DNA of 64,000 nt from assembly GCF_900258515.1 (NCBI RefSeq), contig NZ_LT984884.1, forward strand, positions 948,245-1,012,244, written 5' to 3'. A program made the translations under genes and the position numbers. The stretch is from Lentibacillus sp. Marseille-P4043 (GTDB lineage: Bacteria; Bacillota; Bacilli; Bacillales; Amphibacillaceae). How positions within the stretch are numbered: position 1 is the stretch's first letter; each line of letters opens with the position of its first letter. This document shows, one piece after another, positions 372 through 56,051 of this stretch. Below the pieces are notes generated by a model. It made no database searches, was not told where the DNA came from, and was given only the letters and a program-made list of their open reading frames with translations.

Positions 372-511
372 CATCAGCGCTAGCGGGGAATTATCTGCCC
401 TGTAGGAGAACTATCTGCGCTCGTGGGAAACCATCTGCCGTGACAGAGAACTATCAGCGCTAGCGGGAAACCATCTGCCCTCACGAGAAATTATCTGTAG
501 TAAAGGAAGGC
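372..511. repeat. Degenerate 20-bp tandem repeat array, locus 1 (7 units)
   Basis: Seven consecutive 20-base units begin at 372, 392, 412, 432, 452, 472 and 492. Typical units are TATCAGCGCTAGCGGGAAAC and CATCTGCCCTCACGAGAAAT, so YATCWGC at the start and GRGAAM at the end are conserved while the middle drifts. The period is not a multiple of three and there is no ORF, so it is non-coding. The same unit type recurs at 30161-30662 and, inverted, at 47861-48171. The rest of the gap between the FAH gene and DedA holds nothing else I recognise. Confidence 0.85.
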
Positions 512-556: not shown

Positions 557-1156
557 ATGGAAGATTGGTTAATCGAAATTATAAATGAATATGGCTATAT
601 GAGTATTGTATTTTTAATTGCAATCGAAAATATCTTTCCCCCAATACCTTCTGAAGTAATTCTTACGTTCGGAGGATTTATGACAACTACATCTAACCTA
701 AGTATTATTGGTGTCGTTATTTCTGCAACAGCAGGTTCAGTTATTGGAGCGATCGTTCTATACATAATTGGATTGCAACTGGGTGGAGAAAGACTGGAGA
801 AGATCGTTAACAGATGGGGGCATATTATTCGTTTGAAAGTCGATGATATTCACAAGGCATTTACATGGTTTGACAGATATGGCCTGTGGACGGTTTTCTT
901 TTGCCGTTTTGTTCCTCTCATTCGTAGTTTAATATCCATTCCTGCTGGTATCACGAAAATGAAAACAGGTTTATTTCTTCTGTTTACAATATTAGGAACT
1001 TTAATTTGGAATATTGCCCTTGTTTGGTTAGGTGCATCAGTTGGAACCTCCTGGGAAGCGATTGTCGGTTATATGGATATTTATTCAGATGCAATTTACG
1101 CGATGTTGTTTTTAATCGTAATTGGTTTGTATATTTTTGTTAAAAGAAGAAGATAA
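557..1156 (+). CDS. DedA family membrane protein
   Basis: A 199-residue integral membrane protein of the DedA/VTT family (SNARE-associated PF09335). Members are proposed to flip or scramble undecaprenyl phosphate and phospholipids and to support membrane homeostasis. The sequence has the family landmarks: an N-terminal ENIFPPIPSEVIL re-entrant segment (residues about 24-36), the central FCRFVPLIRSLISIPAG motif (about 115-131), and four to five hydrophobic segments ending in a short basic tail. The start has a good ribosome site (GGGAGGAAAT) directly before ATG. It stands alone; a second, divergent DedA paralogue lies at 33064-33639. Which lipid it moves cannot be told from sequence. Confidence 0.9.
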   Translation: MEDWLIEIINEYGYMSIVFLIAIENIFPPIPSEVILTFGGFMTTTSNLSIIGVVISATAGSVIGAIVLYIIGLQLGGERLEKIVNRWGHIIRLKVDDIHKAFTWFDRYGLWTVFFCRFVPLIRSLISIPAGITKMKTGLFLLFTILGTLIWNIALVWLGASVGTSWEAIVGYMDIYSDAIYAMLFLIVIGLYIFVKRRR

Positions 1157-6009: not shown

Positions 6010-6334
6010 TCGAAGACTTTCTTCTATTTCAATTAAATTGTCAGTATCCTTTATTTAGTAGTTGTAATTCTGATATAATATTCCCCGTGAGAAGGTCTCT
6101 TTCTGAAATGTATTTGCCCGCAGAAACATACATTTTATGATAGATTGCCTTTTCTTTTTTGGCTATAAAATTGCTTTATATACCCTCAGGAAATATTTTA
6201 CACATAGTTCTCAACATGACTTCTATTTACCCACCTTATCCTTTCCTGATTACACAAAATTCCGCCCTATATCCGGAACTGACACCGTTTATTAATCAAG
6301 AAATGCACCCTTTTATTGAACAATTATAATCCAT
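6010..6334. other. Intergenic stretch between ISLre2 remnant and CPBP gene
   Basis: AT-rich sequence; I see no gene, repeat or convincing terminator. One end of the insertion element must lie here, but I could not find its inverted repeat. Confidence 0.4.
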
Positions 6335-29296: not shown

Positions 29297-29989
29297 TTAA
29301 TACATTTGTTCCAACACTAGTTTTAATTCGTCAATGGTTTCTCTATTTTCCTCGATAAGGTCGATCGCATGTATTAAAGTTGTATCGTCACCAGACTTCA
29401 ATGTTGCTTTATCTGTATTTTTAAGCTGTTTAATTAACCATTTCTCTCTTGACTCAAGACTACTATCATTTTCGTTTGTAAGCATTTGCTGGTAAGCTAC
29501 TAACATTTCCATCTTCTCTTCCTCGGTCATAAAGGAAAACTGAAAAATGGATAATGGCTTAAGATAAATCATTCCTGTTTTATAGGCCATTGCTTGATAT
29601 GGTTTTGTAAGTTCACTGATGCTGAATTGCTCTTTGCCGCCAGCTTGATAATCACTTTCATTAACCCCGATCATTAAAATTAAACCAAATTCCTTCCCGA
29701 CTAGAGCATTCCCTTTTTTCCCATGGGCGAAGTCATACGCTAAGACCTCATCTTGCCAATGCTTTAAGAGGGCCGGTGAACTGTACCAATAAAACGGAAA
29801 TTGGAAAAGAATACGATCATGCTGGTTCAGTAATTCCTGTTCTTTAGCAACATCAATCTTTCCATTTGGATACGTTTTTTCTAAATGATGAATCGTCACA
29901 TCTTCTTTATCGGGAACTGAATTTAAAAAGTATTGTTGACTACTGGATTCTAGAATATCTGGATGTGATACAATCACCAAAGTTTTCAT
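29297..29989 (-). CDS. NAD(P)H-dependent oxidoreductase, flavodoxin-like fold (quinone reductase type)
   Basis: 230 residues. The flavodoxin_2 (PF02525) landmarks are present: VIVSHPDILESSSQQYFL at the N-terminus, DRILFQFPFYWYSSPALLKHWQDEVL (about 58-83, FMN and quinone contacts) and a later YDFAHG-like segment. Such enzymes (YwrO, MdaB, KefF) use FMN to reduce quinones or electrophiles with two electrons. The C-terminal ~60 residues are an extra helical extension. It is first in a two-gene transcript with the small helical protein. Confidence 0.88.
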   Translation of the reverse strand: MKTLVIVSHPDILESSSQQYFLNSVPDKEDVTIHHLEKTYPNGKIDVAKEQELLNQHDRILFQFPFYWYSSPALLKHWQDEVLAYDFAHGKKGNALVGKEFGLILMIGVNESDYQAGGKEQFSISELTKPYQAMAYKTGMIYLKPLSIFQFSFMTEEEKMEMLVAYQQMLTNENDSSLESREKWLIKQLKNTDKATLKSGDDTTLIHAIDLIEENRETIDELKLVLEQMY

Positions 29990-30160: not shown

Positions 30161-30662
30161 TATCAGCGCTAGGATGAAAACATCGTCCGGAACGCAGAAA
30201 CATCGGCCCGAGAGAGAAAACATCGTCCGGAACGCAGAAACATCGGCCCGGGGGCAGAAACATCGGCGCCAGGGAGAAAACATCAGCCCGAACGCAAGAA
30301 CATCAACCCGAGCGCGGGAACATCAGCCCGAGCGAGGAAACATCAGCCCGAATGCGAGAACATCAACCCGAGAGAGAAAACATCAGCCCGAACGCAAGAA
30401 CATCAACCCGAACGCGAGAACATCAACCCGAATCGCAAAACATCAACCCGAGCGAGGAAACATCAGCCCGAGCGAGGAAACATCGCCCCGAATCGCGAGA
30501 ACATCAACCCGAATCGCGAAAACATCAGCCCGAGCGAGGAAACATCAGCCCGAGCGCGAGAATATCGACCGGAAACGCGGGAACATCAACCCGAGCGCGG
30601 GAACATCAGCCCGAGCGAGGAAACATCAGCCCGAGCGAGGAAACATCGCCCCGAACGTGATC
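30161..30662. repeat. Degenerate 20-bp tandem repeat array, locus 2 (about 25 units)
   Basis: Units of 20 bases, three or four of 21, with the commonest form CATCAGCCCGAGCGAGGAAA. CATC at the start, CCCG in the middle and GAAA or GGAA at the end are best kept. The first unit, TATCAGCGCTAGGATGAAAA, closely matches units of the array at 372-511. Long open frames through the array (for example 30147-30704) are a by-product of its low stop content, because a 20-base period cycles all three frames. It fills the gap between the oxidoreductase and glycosyltransferase promoters; 29990-30160 holds nothing else I recognise. Confidence 0.9.
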
Positions 30663-30742: not shown

Positions 30743-31744
30743 ATGAAAAAAGTTGGACTCGTGATGAGAAAAATACAATTTACCGAAGCGCAAGGACCAC
30801 GCATTTTTGCTGATAGACTGAAGCAACTATGTAAAGAATTTGGTGTGGATATTGTCTTTATATCTCCTGAGCGGCATGTTAGCGGGTATGATTGGATTCC
30901 AGGATATGAGCATGAAAAAGGCGATCTGGTCAATTATGATATTGTTTTAGACAAAATTTACTCGGAAAATATTGATCATGTGATATATACAGTTTCTGGC
31001 TTTACCTATTTGAAAATGTTTATTGAAAATAGTGTTCTTTTCCCACATAGTTTTCCTGATCCGGCTTTGACTGGTTATGAAATGATGAGGCCATTTTACG
31101 AAATAGTGGATAAGGCCATTGTCCAAACGGAATATTTGAAGCGTGAATTGCATACAAATTTTGGTGTTACGGATGTTTCTGTTATCCCAATTGGTTTCAA
31201 TGAAAGGCTGGCGAGTAAACATTTCGATCCTTCGCAAGTCGTTGATAATCGTGTGCTTTGGATAGGTAGAGATGAAGCAAATAGGCGCCCTGATCTGGTG
31301 CTGGAATATGCACGAAGAAATCCGGATAAAGAAGTGTTTATGGTCTTTGGCGGGGAGCGGTACAGGGAGAGCATGAAAAAATATAACATACCTGATAATG
31401 TGAAACTGCAATTTGCTTTAACGCAAGATGACATCTTTGCGCTTATGAATTCTGCAAAAGTGTATTGGAGCTGTTCTAAATTTGATACATTTGCCATGCC
31501 GCTAACAGAAGCATTAGCAATGGGAAAAATGGTCGTGAAACCGGAGCATCCTTGTTATGACCATATCAGTTCCACACACTCCTTTTCTGGTAATGAGAAG
31601 AACTGGTTTGAACTCGTGAACATGGCTGCAGCTTCACCTAATAAAGTTTCAATGGAGAACCGGCAGTATGCTTTTGACAAATTTACAAGTGAAGTCATGA
31701 AGCAGGGGTATCGGGACTTTTTTGATCAATGGTTAAGGAAATAA
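30743..31744 (+). CDS. Glycosyltransferase, GT4/GT-B family
   Basis: 333 residues with a two-Rossmann GT-B layout. The second half has NRVLWIGRDEANRRPDLVLEYARRNPDKEVFMVFGG, then the donor-binding segment DTFAMPLTEALAMGKMVV (about 275-292), which corresponds to the E-x7-E motif with Asp in place of the first Glu. The first half is less typical (VLDKIYSENIDHVIYTVSGF). It should transfer a sugar from a nucleotide-sugar; acceptor unknown. It is monocistronic; AAGGTGAGTATCG precedes the ATG and a TATGGTATGAT -10-like sequence lies just before, directly after the repeat array. Confidence 0.75.
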   Translation: MKKVGLVMRKIQFTEAQGPRIFADRLKQLCKEFGVDIVFISPERHVSGYDWIPGYEHEKGDLVNYDIVLDKIYSENIDHVIYTVSGFTYLKMFIENSVLFPHSFPDPALTGYEMMRPFYEIVDKAIVQTEYLKRELHTNFGVTDVSVIPIGFNERLASKHFDPSQVVDNRVLWIGRDEANRRPDLVLEYARRNPDKEVFMVFGGERYRESMKKYNIPDNVKLQFALTQDDIFALMNSAKVYWSCSKFDTFAMPLTEALAMGKMVVKPEHPCYDHISSTHSFSGNEKNWFELVNMAAASPNKVSMENRQYAFDKFTSEVMKQGYRDFFDQWLRK

Positions 31745-40364: not shown

Positions 40365-40477
40365 GAGTTTATTCCATAATAGGGCGCGCTAAACGATTAA
40401 AAGACTTTTTGGTAGCAAAGAGATGACAATAATAAATAAAATGTGTACAAACATTTATTTAGTGGTATAATTAACAT

Positions 40478-40627
40478 AGAAAGAGAATAAGTGCATACAC
40501 TAATAAAGACCGCCCATGCTAATACATGGAACGGTCATAATAGAACTGAACCCCGACAAGAGGGGTTGGCAGCTCAGGAAAATAATCCCTCACTTACCTG
40601 CTAAAGTGCATGAGGGATTATTTTTTA
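40478..40627 (+). ncRNA. Predicted antisense antitoxin RNA, module 2
   Basis: Promoter -35 TGTACA (40444-40449), 16-base spacer, -10 TATAAT (40466-40471). The RNA would contain GACCGCCCATGC...GGTC and CCCC...GGGG hairpins and end at the stem AATAATCCCTC/GAGGGATTATT plus T run (about 40580-40627), overlapping the 3' end of the toxin gene on the other strand. It is almost the same sequence as the antisense RNA at 4316-4467. Confidence 0.6.
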
Positions 40628-40704
40628 TGGTTATTATCAGAAACGATAAACGCCACTAACATCCCGAAGGATATCATAAGCGTTAGCGCACTAACAATGT
40701 CCAT
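40618..40704 (-). CDS. Holin-like type I toxin peptide (module 2)
   Basis: 28 residues: MDIVSALTLMISFGMLVAFI followed by VSDNNHKK. It shares LTLMISFGMLVAF with module 1 and has the same strong ribosome site (GGGGAGGGAGGTGATT) and the same upstream leader, promoter and convergent antisense RNA. Modules 1 and 2 are inverted relative to each other, 36 kb apart, and similar across about 350 bp, so one is a recent duplicate. All parts look intact. Confidence 0.75.
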   Translation of the reverse strand: MDIVSALTLMISFGMLVAFIVSDNNHKK

Positions 40705-41108
40705 AGGCAATCACCTCCCTCCCCGGGAAGTCTCCCACCGAAGACTACCGACGAGTGACAGTGCTGCCAAACCCCTCATGCGAAGCCAGTCTATTGTATT
40801 TTATTATAACATATTGCTATCATTTATACTTTAATTATTTGATTACTTTTGACTTTCAAATTGGATCAAAAGTTTAACAACAAATAGCTAATTCATTGTT
40901 CCATAAACGGGCGCGTTTGCGGAAAAGCGGTCTTCAAGACTCGGACCATTTAACGGAATAGGAAATTTTATTAAAAACTGCATCTTTTTATAAGGATGCA
41001 GTTTTTGTACGGAGAATTCTTTATAAAAATGTAAAGATTTATTTACATTAATTCAGATATGTATTATAATTAAGTAAAGATTCATTTACATTTTAGGCGG
41101 TGAAAGAA
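40705..41108. other. Toxin 2 leader and upstream gap before the XRE gene
   Basis: 40705-40830 is the leader and promoter region of toxin 2 on the minus strand (a TATAAT lies near 40805). 40898-40960 holds a junction motif. 40973-41006 is a hairpin, AAAAACTGCATC/GATGCAGTTTTT, good as a bidirectional terminator. Confidence 0.55.
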
Positions 41109-41700: not shown

Positions 41701-41948
41701 AACGATCTACTATGAATTACCGCAAACAGGCGCAATTCTTTAATATAATGGTCAAGAAGCAGAACAAAGGAAATAAGATTTTTTAGTCAAATAGTTTCTA
41801 AAGGAAAGTTTAAAAAATTCTTTAAACTCCTTAGGAAAGTGGTATAAAATAGATATATGCAATAGTCGCGTTTTCCTCAAGGGAGGTCGGCGCATTCCTG
41901 TCGGTTGTAGTGTCATACGATATGCTATAACAGAAGGGGGTGTTGCTC

Positions 41949-42026
41949 ATGTCTGTTTTTGAGACACTGGTTCTAATGATCGCTTTCGCAACACTCGTTG
42001 TAACGATTACAGACCAGAAAAAATAG
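41949..42026 (+). CDS. Holin-like type I toxin peptide (module 3)
   Basis: 25 residues: MSVFETLVLMIAFATLVVTI then TDQKK. Same family plan as modules 1 and 2 (xxLxLMIxFxxLV, charged end) but diverged in sequence. GAAGGGGGTGTTGCTC precedes the ATG. A bidirectional terminator (AATAGACCTC/GAGGTCTATT, 42020-42061) follows. Looks functional and independent of the module 1/2 duplication. Confidence 0.75.
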   Translation: MSVFETLVLMIAFATLVVTITDQKK

Positions 42027-42163
42027 ACCTCCCTGTGTTTAGCAGCCGGGTGAGGTCTATTCCTTGCTTGCGCTGACCCCTCTTGAAGGGGAGCGATTCA
42101 TTGCTGACCGGAGATATTAGCGTATCTTCGGTCTTTATTAGTTTATGCTTTTTTCTTGTCTCT
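42020..42163 (-). ncRNA. Predicted antisense antitoxin RNA, module 3
   Basis: Minus-strand -10 TATAAT at 42170-42175; the -35 (TTGCAA or TTTGCA near 42191-42197) is less certain. The RNA would carry a GACCGAAGATA...TATCTCCGGTC hairpin (about 42107-42134) and CCCC...GGGG, and end at the bidirectional terminator, convergent with toxin 3. Confidence 0.5.
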
Positions 42164-42516
42164 ATGTTTATTATAACACGAAAAAGCAATTTGCAAACAA
42201 AAAAATATGTGATGTTTTTGTTAGCGTTCTTATAACACAGCTCTCAGGTTGCTCCCATCAACGTACCGAACGTGGCGTTTTTCTAAAAGCGCTTTACAAT
42301 TTAACTTCCGCAACCAGCTAATATCAGAAAATTGTTCCACAAAGGGGCACAAATCAGGAATAAGGATTGGCGTACAAGGGCATTTATAAGTGGAATAATT
42401 AACATAGAAAGATTATAAATGAAAGACCGCCCATGCTGATACATGGAACGGTCGCAACAGATTGAACCCCGACAAGAGGGGCTGGCATCTTAGGAAAATA
42501 ATCCCTCACTTACCGG

Positions 42517-45871: not shown

Positions 45872-47767
45872 ATGAGTATACTGGACAAAGTGAAGCATCA
45901 CCGGGAAGAGGAAAGGCAACTAGTGTGGGAAGGTACATTTGCGGAGTATTTGGAAATTGTGAAGGAACGACCAGAAGTTGCCCAAACAGCACATTCTCGC
46001 GTTTATAATATGATCAAAAGTTCTGGATTAACCGAAAAAGATGGTAAAAAAATGTATCAATTTTTTGGCGAAGAGATATTTGGGCTTGAAGATGCGATTG
46101 AAAAGCTTGTCGAGGAATACTTTCATCCGGCAGCAAAACGACTTGATGTTAGGAAGCGTATTTTACTATTAATGGGTCCGGTTAGCGGTGGGAAATCAAC
46201 AATTGTAACAATGCTAAAGCGAGGGCTTGAGGCTTATTCAAGAACGGATGAAGGAGCAGTTTATGCGATTAAAGGCTGTCCGATGCACGAGGATCCGCTT
46301 CATCTAATTCCAAACCATTTGCGGGAGGACTTTTATGAAGAATACGGTATTCGGGTTGAAGGAAGCTTGTCACCTCTGAATACGATGCGATTAGAAAAGG
46401 AATATGATGGGCGAGTTGAAGATGTGAAGGTAGAGCGGATTTTCTTCTCGGAAGACAAACGTGTTGGTGTTGGAACATTTAGTCCGTCTGATCCAAAGTC
46501 ACAGGATATTGCTGATTTAACAGGTAGCATTGATTTTTCAACGATTGCTGAATATGGTTCGGAATCAGATCCTCGGGCATACCGTTTTGATGGGGAATTG
46601 AACAAAGCGAACCGAGGAATGATGGAGTTCCAGGAGATGCTCAAGTGTGATGAAAAGTTTCTTTGGCACCTTTTATCACTCACGCAGGAGGGTAATTTTA
46701 AAGCGGGCAGGTTTGCTTTAATAAGTGCCGATGAACTCATTGTGGCACACACGAACGAAGCAGAGTACCGTTCCTTTATTTCCAATAAAAAGAATGAGGC
46801 ATTGCATTCAAGAATTATCGTGATGCCGATTCCTTACAATTTACGTGTGACTCAAGAAGAGCGTATTTACGATAAAATGATAAGGGAAAGTGATATGGCA
46901 CATGTCCACATTGCGCCACATGCACTACGGGTTGCTGCGATTTTTTCCATTTTGACAAGGCTTGAGGATTCTAAAAAGCAAGGTGTTGACCATGTTAAGA
47001 AGATGCGCCTTTATGATGGCGAAAGTGTTGAGGGGTTCAACCAACTTGATGTGGAGGAATTAAGAAAAGAGTTTCCTGAAGAAGGGATGAACGGGATTGA
47101 TCCACGTTATGTGATTAATCGAATTTCATCGACGATTATTCGTAAAGAAGTTCCATCGATTAATGCCCTTGATGTTCTGCGATCGCTAAAAGACGGCCTT
47201 GATCAGCATCCTTCAATTTCAGATGAAGACCGGGAAAACTATATGAACTATATTGCCGTTGCTAGACGTGAATACGATGAAATTGCTAAGAAGGAAGTTC
47301 AGAAAGCATTTGTCTATTCGTATGAGGAGTCGGCGAAAACGTTAATGGATAACTACCTAGATAATGTCGAGGCGTATTGTAACAAGAATAAGCTAAGGGA
47401 TCCGTTGACAGGAGAAGAAATGAATCCGGATGAAAAATTAATGCGCTCGATTGAGGAACAAATCGGTATTTCTGAAAATGCGAAAAAGGCCTTTCGCGAG
47501 GAAATTCTTATTCGTATTTCCGCCTATGCAAGAAAGGGGAAACGTTTTGAATATAACTCGCATGAGCGGTTGCGCGAGGCAATTCAAAAGAAATTATTTG
47601 CCGACTTAAAAGATGTTGTCAAAATTACAACGACATCAAAAACGCCTGACGAGTCACAACTTAAAAAGATCAATGAAGTGATTACTAGATTGATTGATGA
47701 ATATGGCTATAATTCTATTTCAGCTAACGAACTTTTACGGTATGTTGGAAGCTTGTTGAATCGATAA
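45872..47767 (+). CDS. prkA: PrkA serine protein kinase / AAA+ sporulation protein
   Basis: 631 residues, full length. PrkA has an N-terminal AAA+ domain with Walker A GPVSGGKST (about 102-110) and a C-terminal kinase-like domain; in B. subtilis it is made under sigma-E and influences sporulation, with Lon-like protease activity also reported. Strings such as VYAIKGCPMHEDPLHLIPNH, DIADLTGSIDFSTIAEYGSE and FNQLDVEELRKEFPEEGMNGIDPRYVINRI are highly typical. It lies with yhbH and spoVR, which are genomic partners across bacteria (prkA-yhbH-spoVR, yeaGH-ycgB). ATGGAGGAAATAAA precedes the ATG; the 5' region has the direct repeat CTCAAGGTATT twice at about 45756-45777. Confidence 0.96.
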   Translation: MSILDKVKHHREEERQLVWEGTFAEYLEIVKERPEVAQTAHSRVYNMIKSSGLTEKDGKKMYQFFGEEIFGLEDAIEKLVEEYFHPAAKRLDVRKRILLLMGPVSGGKSTIVTMLKRGLEAYSRTDEGAVYAIKGCPMHEDPLHLIPNHLREDFYEEYGIRVEGSLSPLNTMRLEKEYDGRVEDVKVERIFFSEDKRVGVGTFSPSDPKSQDIADLTGSIDFSTIAEYGSESDPRAYRFDGELNKANRGMMEFQEMLKCDEKFLWHLLSLTQEGNFKAGRFALISADELIVAHTNEAEYRSFISNKKNEALHSRIIVMPIPYNLRVTQEERIYDKMIRESDMAHVHIAPHALRVAAIFSILTRLEDSKKQGVDHVKKMRLYDGESVEGFNQLDVEELRKEFPEEGMNGIDPRYVINRISSTIIRKEVPSINALDVLRSLKDGLDQHPSISDEDRENYMNYIAVARREYDEIAKKEVQKAFVYSYEESAKTLMDNYLDNVEAYCNKNKLRDPLTGEEMNPDEKLMRSIEEQIGISENAKKAFREEILIRISAYARKGKRFEYNSHERLREAIQKKLFADLKDVVKITTTSKTPDESQLKKINEVITRLIDEYGYNSISANELLRYVGSLLNR

Positions 47768-47784: not shown

Positions 47785-47819
47785 AAACAAGGCTAATTAT
47801 GGAGTTAGTCTTGTTTTTT
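47785..47819 (+). terminator. Intrinsic terminator of prkA
   Basis: AACAAGGCTAA pairs with TTAGTCTTGTT (one G-U pair) and runs into TTTTTTT. Confidence 0.8.
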
Positions 47820-47860
47820 TATAGGCTAGAGTGTTGCTATCCACACTGCAGCCCGGAATC

Positions 47861-48171
47861 TCACGCCGATGATTCCACGCCCGGGCTGATGTTATCGCTT
47901 TCGGGCTGATGATTCGGTGCACGGGCTGATGTTATCGCTTTCGGGCCGATGATTCGGTGCACGGGCTGATGTTATCATTTTCGGGCCGATGATTCCGTGC
48001 CCGAGCCGATGTTATCGCTTTCGGGCTGATGATTCGGTGCACGGGCTGATGTTATCATTTTCGGGCCGATGATTCGGTGCACGGGCTGATGTTATCATTT
48101 TCGGGCTGATGATTCGGTGCACGGGCTGATGTTATCATTTTCGGGCCGATGATTCCACGCCCGGGCCGATG
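47861..48171. repeat. 20-bp tandem repeat array, locus 3, with 40-bp alternation
   Basis: About fifteen 20-base units in the opposite orientation to loci 1 and 2: each contains CGGGCTGATG or CGGGCCGATG, whose reverse complement is the CATCAGCCCG core seen at 30161. Two unit types alternate, ending ATTCGGTGCA and TTATCGCTTT (or TTATCATTTT), giving a 40-bp higher-order repeat. It fills the prkA-yhbH gap after the prkA terminator. Copies are more alike here than at the other loci, so this array is younger or more recently homogenised. Confidence 0.9.
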
Positions 48172-48304
48172 TAATACCAGTTTTGAATCATTGTTAATAA
48201 ATAATCTTAATGTTTAGCAATAACTCGTATACAACTGCATAGGATAAAGAAAGTGGTCAAATTATTTAATAATGTATAATATTCAAACAACAGGAGGGGA
48301 TAGT

Positions 48305-49471
48305 GTGAAGGAAGAAAAGGAAAACTTTGTCGTCTCCCAGGAAAATTGGTCCCTCCATCGTAAGGGTTATCAGGATCAGCAACGTCATATGGATAAAGTA
48401 AAGGAAGCTATTAAGAATAATTTACCAGATTTAATAACCGAAGAAAACATCATTATGTCCAATGGGCGTGATGTGATCAAGATTCCCATCCGTTCATTAG
48501 ACGAGTACAAAATCCGCTATAATTACAATAAATCAAAACATGTGGGTCAAGGAGATGGTGATAGTCAAGTCGGTGATGTCGTTGCCCGTGATCCAAACAG
48601 TAAGGATAAAGGAAAGGGTGCTGGTCAAGGGAAGCAAGCAGGAGACAAACCTGGAAGTGACTATTATGAAGCAGATGTGTCCATCGCTGAAATAGAAGCG
48701 GCCCTGTTTAAGGAACTCGAACTCCCCAACTTAGAACAAAAGGAACAAGCCGAAATTACCACGGAAAAAATAGAATTTAATGATGTCCGCAAAAAAGGAT
48801 TAATGGGAAATATTGATAAAAAGCGAACCATTTTAACCGCCCTCAAACGAAATGCAACAGAAGGAAAGCCTGGTATCACTCCTATTTATAATGATGATCT
48901 CCGTTTTAAAACCTGGAATGAAGTAATTAAACCCGATTCAAAAGCGGTTGTGCTGGCGATGATGGATACAAGTGCATCCATGGGGACATTTGCCAAATAC
49001 ATGGCGAGGAGTTTCTTTTTCTGGATGACCAAATTTTTACGGTCGAAATATGAAACCGTTGAAATTGATTTTATTGCGCATCATACAGAAGCAAAAGTTG
49101 TATCAGAAGAAGACTTTTTTTCAAAAGGGGAAAGTGGTGGTACGATTTGTTCATCAGCTTACTACAAAGCATTAGAGCTGATTGATCAAAAATACGATCC
49201 GCAACGTTTTAATATTTATCCTTTTCACTTTTCAGATGGAGAAAATATAACATCGGATAACCCGAAATGTATTGAACTTATTAATCAGATTATGGACGTT
49301 TCAAATATGTTTGGTTATGGTGAAGTGAATGAATACAATAGACGTTCAACACTTATGAATGCATATCAAACAATTGACAATCCGAAATTCCGGCACTACA
49401 TCTTGAAAGAGAAAAGTGACGTTTATCATGCGATGAAGAGCTTCTTTCAGAAAGAGGTTGCTACCGTATAA
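48305..49471 (+). CDS. yhbH: YhbH-type sporulation protein (DUF444)
   Basis: 388 residues from GTG 48305, 6 bases after AGGAGGGG. DUF444/YeaH family: N-terminal [20 protein letters not shown], a Gly/Lys-rich linker (about 95-125: [16 protein letters not shown]), and a von Willebrand A-like C-terminal domain with the metal-ion motif [13 protein letters not shown] (about 222) and [20 protein letters not shown]. It acts with PrkA and SpoVR; B. subtilis yhbH is sigma-E dependent. The exact biochemical role is unknown. Confidence 0.93.
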
Positions 49472-55256: not shown

Positions 55257-55291
55257 AAGGGAGCGGGATGACGATGTTATTCCGCTCCCTT
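55257..55291 (+). terminator. Terminator hairpin of spoVR copy 2
   Basis: AAGGGAGCGG and CCGCTCCCTT form the stem; a mutated version follows copy 3 at about 60450-60485. Confidence 0.75.
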
Positions 55292-55312
55292 ATAATATTT
55301 GTTCGCATGATG

Positions 55313-56051
55313 GGATTAACGGATCAAATATATAAAATCGATACTATGATACATACAATGAAGTCTGCACATCTTGAGCCTCCTCAATTTAAGGAAACTA
55401 GGAACAGTTTTATTGTTACATTTAAAAACCATAATTTTATTGACGAAGAGGCTATAAGTTGGCTGAATTCCTACACCGATTTATCGATGAATGATTGCCA
55501 AGTAGCTGCGCTTGTCTATATAAGAAATAATGAAAGAATTACTAATCGAGAGTATCAGGAATTAAATAGTACCGAAAGTGTAACTGCGACAAAGGAATTA
55601 AAATATTTGTTACAGAGTGATTTGATTATTCAAAATGGAACAAGGGGTGGAGCTTTTTATACATTAGCTAAAAACGATCAGAAAAAGAAAAATAACTCCG
55701 GTCCTAACGATAAGAGCTCCGTACCTAACGAGAGTAACTCCGGTCCTAACGGTAAGAGCTCCGTACCTAGTGAGCCAGAATTGTTAAATATTTCAGAGGT
55801 GGCAAAAAAAACGCCGATTAAGTTCAATACAAATGAATGAATTAATATTGAAGCTCTGCCAAATAAAAGCTCTAACACTACAGGAATTAAGTGATTTATT
55901 AGATAGGAAGCCTGAACCACTTAGGAAAAATTACCTTTCAAAATTAGTTAAAGATGAAAAGTTGGAATTACTTTATCCGGATCAAATAAATCATCCTAAA
56001 CAAGCGTATATAACAACAAAAAAGGGAAATGTTGAATACAAAAATAAATAA
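55313..56051 (+). pseudogene. AlbA_2/Schlafen-type ATP-binding protein, C-terminal remnant with frameshift
   Basis: From about 55335 the frame reads SAHLEPPQFKETRNSFIVTF, DEEAISWLNSYTDLSMNDCQ, NERITNREYQELNSTESVTA, LLQSDLIIQNGTRGGAFYTL, the well-known C-terminal half of AlbA_2/'divergent AAA-4' proteins, but the N-terminal AlbA domain is missing. A linker with a 48-bp tandem repeat (NSGPNDKSSVPNE, NSGPNGKSSVPSE) leads to a stop at 55840; the last domain (MNELILKLCQIKALTLQELS, NHPKQAYITTK) continues in another frame from 55833 to 56051. So it is both truncated and frameshifted. It begins in DNA duplicated after spoVR copy 3. Confidence 0.8.

Follow-up and report, generated by a model that had tools for sequence, protein, structure and literature searches.

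The DNA analysed here, called the window, is a stretch of 64,000 nucleotides from the genome of Lentibacillus sp. Marseille-P4043 (the host). It carries three tandem arrays of 7, 25 and 16 units of 20-21 bp, read by eye and then split at a recurring core (Table 1), and the 20-bp repeat arrays claimed in an earlier note, made from the letters alone, are thus real. Successive cores stand 20 bp apart at all six steps of array 1 and all 15 of array 3, and at 21 of the 24 steps of array 2, the other three measuring 21 bp; Tandem Repeats Finder assigns array 3 a period of 40. The longest chain of cores in 100 simulated windows (Markov-1) was 3, versus 6, 25 and 16 for the real arrays with the same detector. 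All three arrays fall between annotated or predicted genes, and the five flanking genes examined by Pfam (the left neighbour of array 1 excluded) belong to unrelated Pfam families, with no partition gene among them. A hairpin similar to the one preceding array 3 was recognized by eye in the congener G002.

Table 1. Arrays in the window, their flanking genes and an associated hairpin (window coordinates)
Feature	Position	Strand	Description
Array 1	372..511	+	7 units, exactly 20 bp; core YATC(A/T)G; remainders diverse
VTT-domain (DedA-type) membrane protein gene	557..1156	+	Pfam family; array 1 lies upstream
Flavodoxin_2 family gene	29297..29989	-	Pfam family; flanks array 2
Array 2	30161..30662	+	25 units of 20-21 bp; class I (CATCRNCCCGA)
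Glycosyltransferase group 1 gene	30743..31744	+	Pfam family; flanks array 2
PrkA gene (AAA_PrkA and PrkA C-terminal domain)	45872..47767	+	Pfam families; flanks array 3
Terminator-like hairpin and T run	47785..47821	+	Read by eye; after the prkA-like gene, before array 3
Array 3	about 47852..48171	-	16 units of 20 bp; two mostly alternating subtypes
DUF444 protein gene	48272..49471	+	Pfam family; flanks array 3

Two mechanical ORFs, of 185 and 102 aa, cross array 2 because its units contain no stop codon in that direction. Where the step changes by 1 bp the frame shifts with it, and array 2 is therefore taken as non-coding and the ORFs as presumably accidental. As far as tested, the arrays are indeed non-coding and not CRISPR, as the earlier note had it. 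CRISPR arrays consist of repeats of about 21-50 bp split by unique spacers of similar length, whereas the units here are contiguous at a 20-21 bp step around a conserved core of about 7-9 bp, and Rfam returns no CRISPR match in the 64-kb window. The sole Rfam match lies away from the arrays, at 41860-42131, and is a BsrG-like type I toxin-antitoxin RNA (RF01412, 71.6 bits, cut-off 55). Several related copies of the window segments at about 41804-42232 and 40430-40926 occur in both G001, a further congener, and G002. A separate repeat of 21-bp period (55696-55763, 3.2 copies) lies within an ORF at 55268-55840, and its unit has no ATCRRC core.

The earlier note spoke of just three unrelated loci, which misjudged the scale. 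A two-unit pattern gives 1,015 matches in the host genome (453 plus, 562 minus) and none with the reversed-pattern control, and a systematic sample of 39 stretches of 20 kb, one every 100 kb, holds 17 loci in 780 kb, extrapolating to about 85 loci in 3.92 Mb. From the host stretches read, 20 of them picked for already-known arrays, we catalogued 56 arrays (1,358 units) spread round the chromosome, counting one 4-unit entry that sits on the opposite strand inside a longer array. Steps between chained cores measure 20 bp in 1,089 cases, 21 bp in 139, 19 bp in 8 and 22 bp in 4, with 50 further double steps of 39-42 bp. Gene overlap is at most 30 bp in 55 of the 56 arrays, the remaining one covering a gene end by about 70 bp, as judged by a simple codon-usage gene finder trained on the host, for which ‘intergenic’ may hide missed short genes.

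Within this gene-free DNA the arrays favour convergent gaps. Such gaps hold 17 of the 50 arrays with both flanks known and make up 39 of 297 background gaps at least 150 bp long (Fisher p 6e-4). Divergent ones hold 5 of the 50 and make up 61 of the 297 (Fisher p 0.08), so that their avoidance is only a tendency. A terminator-like hairpin precedes the array at 32 of 51 gene 3' ends facing arrays, as against 11 of 51 in the opposite-strand control and 110 of 300 in the general background. The frequency of arrays at gene ends, together with a terminator-like site detected within 33 of the 56 arrays, could point to an RNA-level element, transcribed as a structured 3' region or terminator. We consider this extremely unlikely: the internal sites are set aside because the finder is lenient, as its opposite-strand control indicates, the hairpins ahead of the arrays imply that many arrays should lie beyond the transcript, four array segments fold not significantly better than shuffled sequence on either strand (z -1.75 to 1.10), and the only Rfam match in the window lies elsewhere.

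Array orientation is linked to replication. Host GC skew flips sign from the stretch at 0.70-0.72 Mb to that at 0.80-0.82 Mb, and again between 2.82 and 2.90 Mb; the origin was placed at 790 kb from this skew, which leaves an array at 780,551 borderline. Among host arrays with at least six units, 46 of 55 lie on the leading strand, a proportion similar to that of genes (469 of 589). In convergent gaps, which have no preferred direction of transcription, 15 of 17 host arrays are still leading, as are three of four in gaps between lagging-strand genes; array 3, on the lagging strand, is an exception to the rule. Across the host and seven relatives, with clusters merged and the leading strand approximated from local GC skew, the array strand is leading at 93 of 113 loci and the purine-rich strand at 98 of 113, the latter measure having been adopted post hoc with the data already seen. 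At 35 convergent loci from seven genomes the counts are 31 and 32, respectively, and outside the host 17 and 18 of 19. Orientation therefore tracks replication more than transcription. Single relatives are not significant alone: G001 has 5 of 10 leading by array strand and 7 of 10 by purine-rich strand, G082 has 2 and 4 of 5, and G028 has 8 of 10 by both. Strand-biased slippage could underlie the bias, as could a function that is read directionally.

A directional function invites comparison with replication-polar marks of the KOPS/SRS or Chi kind, oriented arrays being read by a translocase or recombination enzyme. That orientation goes with replication where transcription is neutral, in the convergent gaps of the host and of the seven genomes together, speaks for such a reading, which we nevertheless regard as improbable. 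The core strand itself shows no leading bias in G001 and G082, where just the purine-rich strand tends to lead; known marks of this kind are single short motifs; and the array enrichment near the origin that the earlier note proposed as a check was not significant (17 loci, p 0.14).

The separation between what is kept and what is free emerges from G001, a congener with a one-contig genome. The strict class I pattern finds nothing in it and the class I model just four weak matches (best E 1.2e-4), but it has 298 triple-core matches against a control of 0. Its arrays retain the core ATC[A/G][A/G]C at a spacing of 21 bp, in places 20 bp, while the rest varies from unit to unit, and three local array classes are present (ATATCRACC, TATCAGCGATTT and CGATCAACTTT). 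Over 11 arrays with 79 units, mean within-array identity reaches 0.95 for columns +4 and +6 and 0.77 for column -1, all three left free by the detector, and falls to 0.22-0.30 at +11 to +16, where chance is 0.25. The corresponding columns in the host (G000), G002 and G177 show 0.48-0.77, with chance at 0.33-0.36. A purine occupies +3 in 79 of 79 G001 units, although the detector permits T, and +4 in 79 of 79, although it requires no base there. Beyond G001 the rule is less strict, with purines at +4 in 768 of 847 units from the other family genomes and in 153 of 180 from 12 further genomes. The YATCAGC(C/G)C core of the earlier note is too narrow: the core shared across species is ATC[A/G]NC, mostly ATC[A/G][A/G]C, with the CCCG part swapped in other species.

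The spacing is kept too. In 19 relatives, 962 of 977 steps are 20 or 21 bp, where the detector allows 19-22, and the mean step runs from 20.0 to 21.0; for same-strand ATCRRC sites in the G001 arrays and 120 bp to either side, 65 of 75 consecutive distances are 20-21 bp. A motif-free scan of 203 intergenic regions (151,038 bp) from a systematic G001 sample, for chains of at least four identical 5-mers with every step between 9 and 45, returned chains solely at 20/21, 21/22, 41/42 and 42/43 bp, all of them from 3 of the 20 sampled stretches. Of the 21 5-mers at 20/21, 19 map to the core, its complement or adjoining bases, the exceptions being TCGGG and CGGGA. The scan also caught a 10-unit G001 array (L180, about 1411-1610) that the detector had missed because alternate units read, on the complement strand, CTCAACTTT in place of ATCAACTTT.

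Slippage alone does not produce arrays such as those of G001, with core and step intact and the remainder at chance; a phased binding array does. The earlier note offered a phased binding array or a slippage satellite as alternatives, and both find support at different levels. The binding part, judged from the sequence, gains from the G001 arrays, whose pattern suggests sites for a protein. The slippage part gains from the long, fairly homogeneous arrays of the host and of Virgibacillus oceani, in which slippage is clearly also at work, and leaves the G001 arrays unexplained when taken alone. The same-face phasing proposed earlier stands for neighbours and not for whole arrays: with 10.5 bp per turn, a step of exactly 20.0 bp is 1 bp under two turns, so that adjacent cores are nearly co-facing while a long host array slowly winds round the helix and loses strict helical phase.

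A search of related genomes with a consensus profile, as recommended in the earlier note, had a positive outcome: the class I sequence-only model R1 matches 28 of 159 family genomes (10 of 46 genera), and a strict class I search finds 8 of 159, an undercount. Breadth was measured by triple-core matches against a control, with 40 or more taken as an excess. At least one match occurs in 131 of the 159 family genomes, many by chance or in coding repeats, and 40 or more in 34 of 159, from 10 genera; matches against control are, for example, 331/0 in G098 and 457/0 in G125, and the highest family controls are 21, 13 and 7. In a sample of 380 genomes from 46 other families of the same order, 40 or more matches are found in 29 genomes of 13 families (for instance G250, 479/1; G304, 333/0; G222, 162/0; G435, 166/0; G515, 128/0), three of the 29 having high controls (G259, 48; G405, 21; G489, 15). 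Many members of the family, some even in the same genus, have no excess, and any function of the arrays must therefore be dispensable or replaceable.

Arrays were also inspected individually. In seven relatives, 69 of 69 arrays are not mainly within predicted genes, and the reversed control is 0. In 12 further genomes, eight of other families, 20 small stretches picked because the pattern matched there hold 22 arrays. Their steps are 20-21 bp, their remainders differ between species, and some alternate in pairs; 11 of the 22 overlap an ORF of at least 80 aa, and some could be coding repeats, a 21-bp step equalling seven codons. A contig-wide pattern search returned 15 stretches, 12 of them in two Virgibacillus species, and single matches in Halostella, Fimbriimonadia and Phycisphaeraceae were taken as chance. 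One G003 stretch with a class I match holds no array of four units by the detector.

Comparison of matching sites between congeners reveals turnover together with partial positional conservation. At sites from host stretches picked for holding several arrays, G001 has an array of at least four units in 4 of 9 testable matching gaps, whereas 174 sampled gaps at least 100 bp long hold 6 (Fisher p 5e-4); counting the missed L180 array raises the background to 7. The G001 gap before the gene matching that beside array 2 holds a 4-unit array of a different class and opposite orientation. At site B the 44 units of the host correspond to nine from another class in G001 and, as judged by eye, to a single relic unit in G002. 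Site L077:12715 has 39 units in the host, eight of another class in G001 and, in G002, a decayed class I array (by eye; four cores by the detector) adjoining terminator-like hairpins. At site L057:460, G002 carries a class I array of four units and G001 an array of a third class; site C has an opposite-facing 4-unit array in G001 with the right flank alone conserved; the positional match at sites C and L077:12715 rests on one conserved G001 flank each.

Absences are visible too. At site A, the position of array 3, 59 bp separate the aligned flanks in G002 versus 456 bp in the host, an empty site, and G001 has no array there either. The other sites lacking a G001 array, making five of the nine, are L057:15472, L030:3440, L030:12887 (read over just the outer 0.5 kb or so on both sides of a rearranged gap of 4.7 kb) and L077:1562. 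Outside the nine-site count are L029:4592, L029:8815 and L057:9632, with rearranged flanks, and L057:2798, where an array is present in G002, the one congener judgeable there. A distinct dispersed element of about 105 bp, with two conserved blocks at 6155-6195 and 6219-6261, occurs at L077:6155-6262 (G000:C1 about 3626254-3626361), with dozens of copies in G001 and fewer in G002.

Empty sites and the patchy distribution among species are what neutral satellites would leave if slippage or unequal exchange altered their length and they spread by chance, functionless, into gene-free DNA. The fair internal uniformity of arrays in the host, G002 and G177, which differ between loci, agrees with this, as do the two-unit higher-order repeats of array 3 and of L196 and L199, and gaps at gene ends are where DNA accumulates most safely. 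We nonetheless judge this account unlikely, although it comes ahead of the other alternatives: neutral decay of a tandem array should erase core and remainder together and is not expected to yield the G001 pattern, one and the same core and step appear in many genera beside differing remainders, and arrays of different classes stand at matching positions. Since only the remainder is gone, selection on the core and the helical step would be the simplest account.

Gain and loss between species would also follow if the arrays were selfish, with a core-recognizing enzyme (for example, a nickase acting on single-stranded fork DNA) amplifying or copying units. Such an enzyme would explain both the conserved core and the replication-linked orientation, including the leading-strand placement of the purine-rich strand in convergent gaps and elsewhere. 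We give this idea only a small chance, comparable to that of polar marks. G001 arrays with wholly diverged remainders retain their cores, which therefore seem to be maintained after birth, and signs of phage, plasmid or viral carriage were not found, the class I pattern having no match in viral contigs and array 2 none in plasmids or phages.

Other properties of the repeats were weighed and set aside. In a wedge model, the arrays of five genomes are no more curved than permutations of the same period (mean fraction at or above the observed value, 0.38-0.72), which discounts intrinsic curvature. A 10-bp pair in L104 prompted a search for inverted complementarity between remainders, which yielded 5 cases against 2.9 expected from column-permuted controls, no significant excess, 36 of 200 shuffles reaching 5; direct matches between remainders, 12 against 7.8 expected, were not significant either (17 of 200 shuffles reaching 12). 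Self-palindromes in G001 remainders, 13 against 8.0 expected, were not significant (13 of 200 shuffles reaching 13). Slippage alone, RNA structure, curvature and CRISPR all fit the arrays poorly.

Among known systems, the arrays resemble plasmid centromere repeats and iterons in build and REP/BIME elements in distribution, each of these differing from them in a testable defining feature. Plasmid parC sites are centromeres beside partition genes, and the iterons of theta plasmids are direct repeats, each about two helical turns long, to which an initiator binds and which are confined to replication origins. The arrays share with both the helically phased direct repeats with a conserved core, the phase being approximate where the step is 20.0, and with iterons the repeat spacing; they differ from iterons in being dispersed, and from both in that the five flanking genes in the window include no partition or initiator gene of their own. 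They differ from parC further in occupying an estimated 85 chromosomal loci and in having, in some species, a free remainder. Intergenic VNTR/MIRU minisatellites are tandem repeats of varying copy number, and the arrays are likewise tandem and intergenic; we know of no VNTR/MIRU with a conserved core-plus-step and a free remainder across genera.

Published examples sharpen these comparisons. The parC of the pSK41 ParMRC system is reported to consist of tandem 20-bp direct repeats bound cooperatively along the DNA by ParR (PMC9426499), close to the 20-21 bp units described here. In pSM19035 parS, the ribbon-helix-helix protein Omega is described as binding a 5'-WATCACW-3' core in arrays of 7-10 repeats (PMC9499535). 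That core resembles the WATCRRC of our arrays, whereas the heptads are reported to be contiguous, with a gap between repeats blocking full activation (PMC9499535), giving a 7-bp step there versus 20-21 bp here. REP/BIME elements of enterobacteria are dispersed and intergenic protein-binding sites, some in regular series, the REPs being palindromes in alternating orientation (PMC2817692); the dispersed intergenic distribution is common to both, and our arrays consist of direct, non-palindromic units in a single orientation per array. For the genus Virgibacillus, 36 CRISPRs are listed in the Virgibacillus halodenitrificans genome (PMC10556750), some of which might be arrays of the present kind.

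Taken together, we think it probable that the arrays are phased cis-acting binding arrays, kept by selection and expanded by slippage. Motif and spacing, and sometimes location, outlast the other sequence, which suggests a docking strip for a protein, and a protein binding side by side on DNA would be the simplest agent. In the mechanism we propose, a sequence-specific protein would recognize one ATC[A/G][A/G]C core, in most cases with T or C in front of it, every two turns of the helix. Several to dozens of neighbouring cores would be bound side by side, presumably cooperatively, and the resulting nucleoprotein strip would occupy DNA free of genes, in many cases at the ends of genes and between convergent ones. 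Selection would preserve the core and its 20-21 bp spacing and let the remaining 12-14 bp drift; slippage or unequal exchange would raise or lower copy number, leaving some arrays long and homogeneous and a strand bias tied to replication. As a first guess at the cellular role, the strips might form a chromosome-organizing or supercoil-buffering boundary between transcription units.

Few sequences dedicated to architecture are generally credited to bacterial chromosomes. No description of such arrays was found in the open-access literature searched, mostly at the level of titles. We tentatively propose, at somewhat less than even confidence, that the arrays form an undescribed class of chromosomal element in several families of the order: helically phased arrays of a 6-8 bp core that can persist at particular gene ends while their remainder is replaced, are filamented by a putative protein, mark or insulate transcription-unit boundaries and are oriented by replication. 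Arrays of this kind could be mis-annotated as CRISPR or as plain minisatellites. They would also constitute a natural experiment in which selection on core and helical step could be told apart from slippage, and, with dozens of phased arrays per genome and some position-matched across species, they would offer a handle on gene ends, supercoiling and chromosome folding in the relatives of Bacillus.
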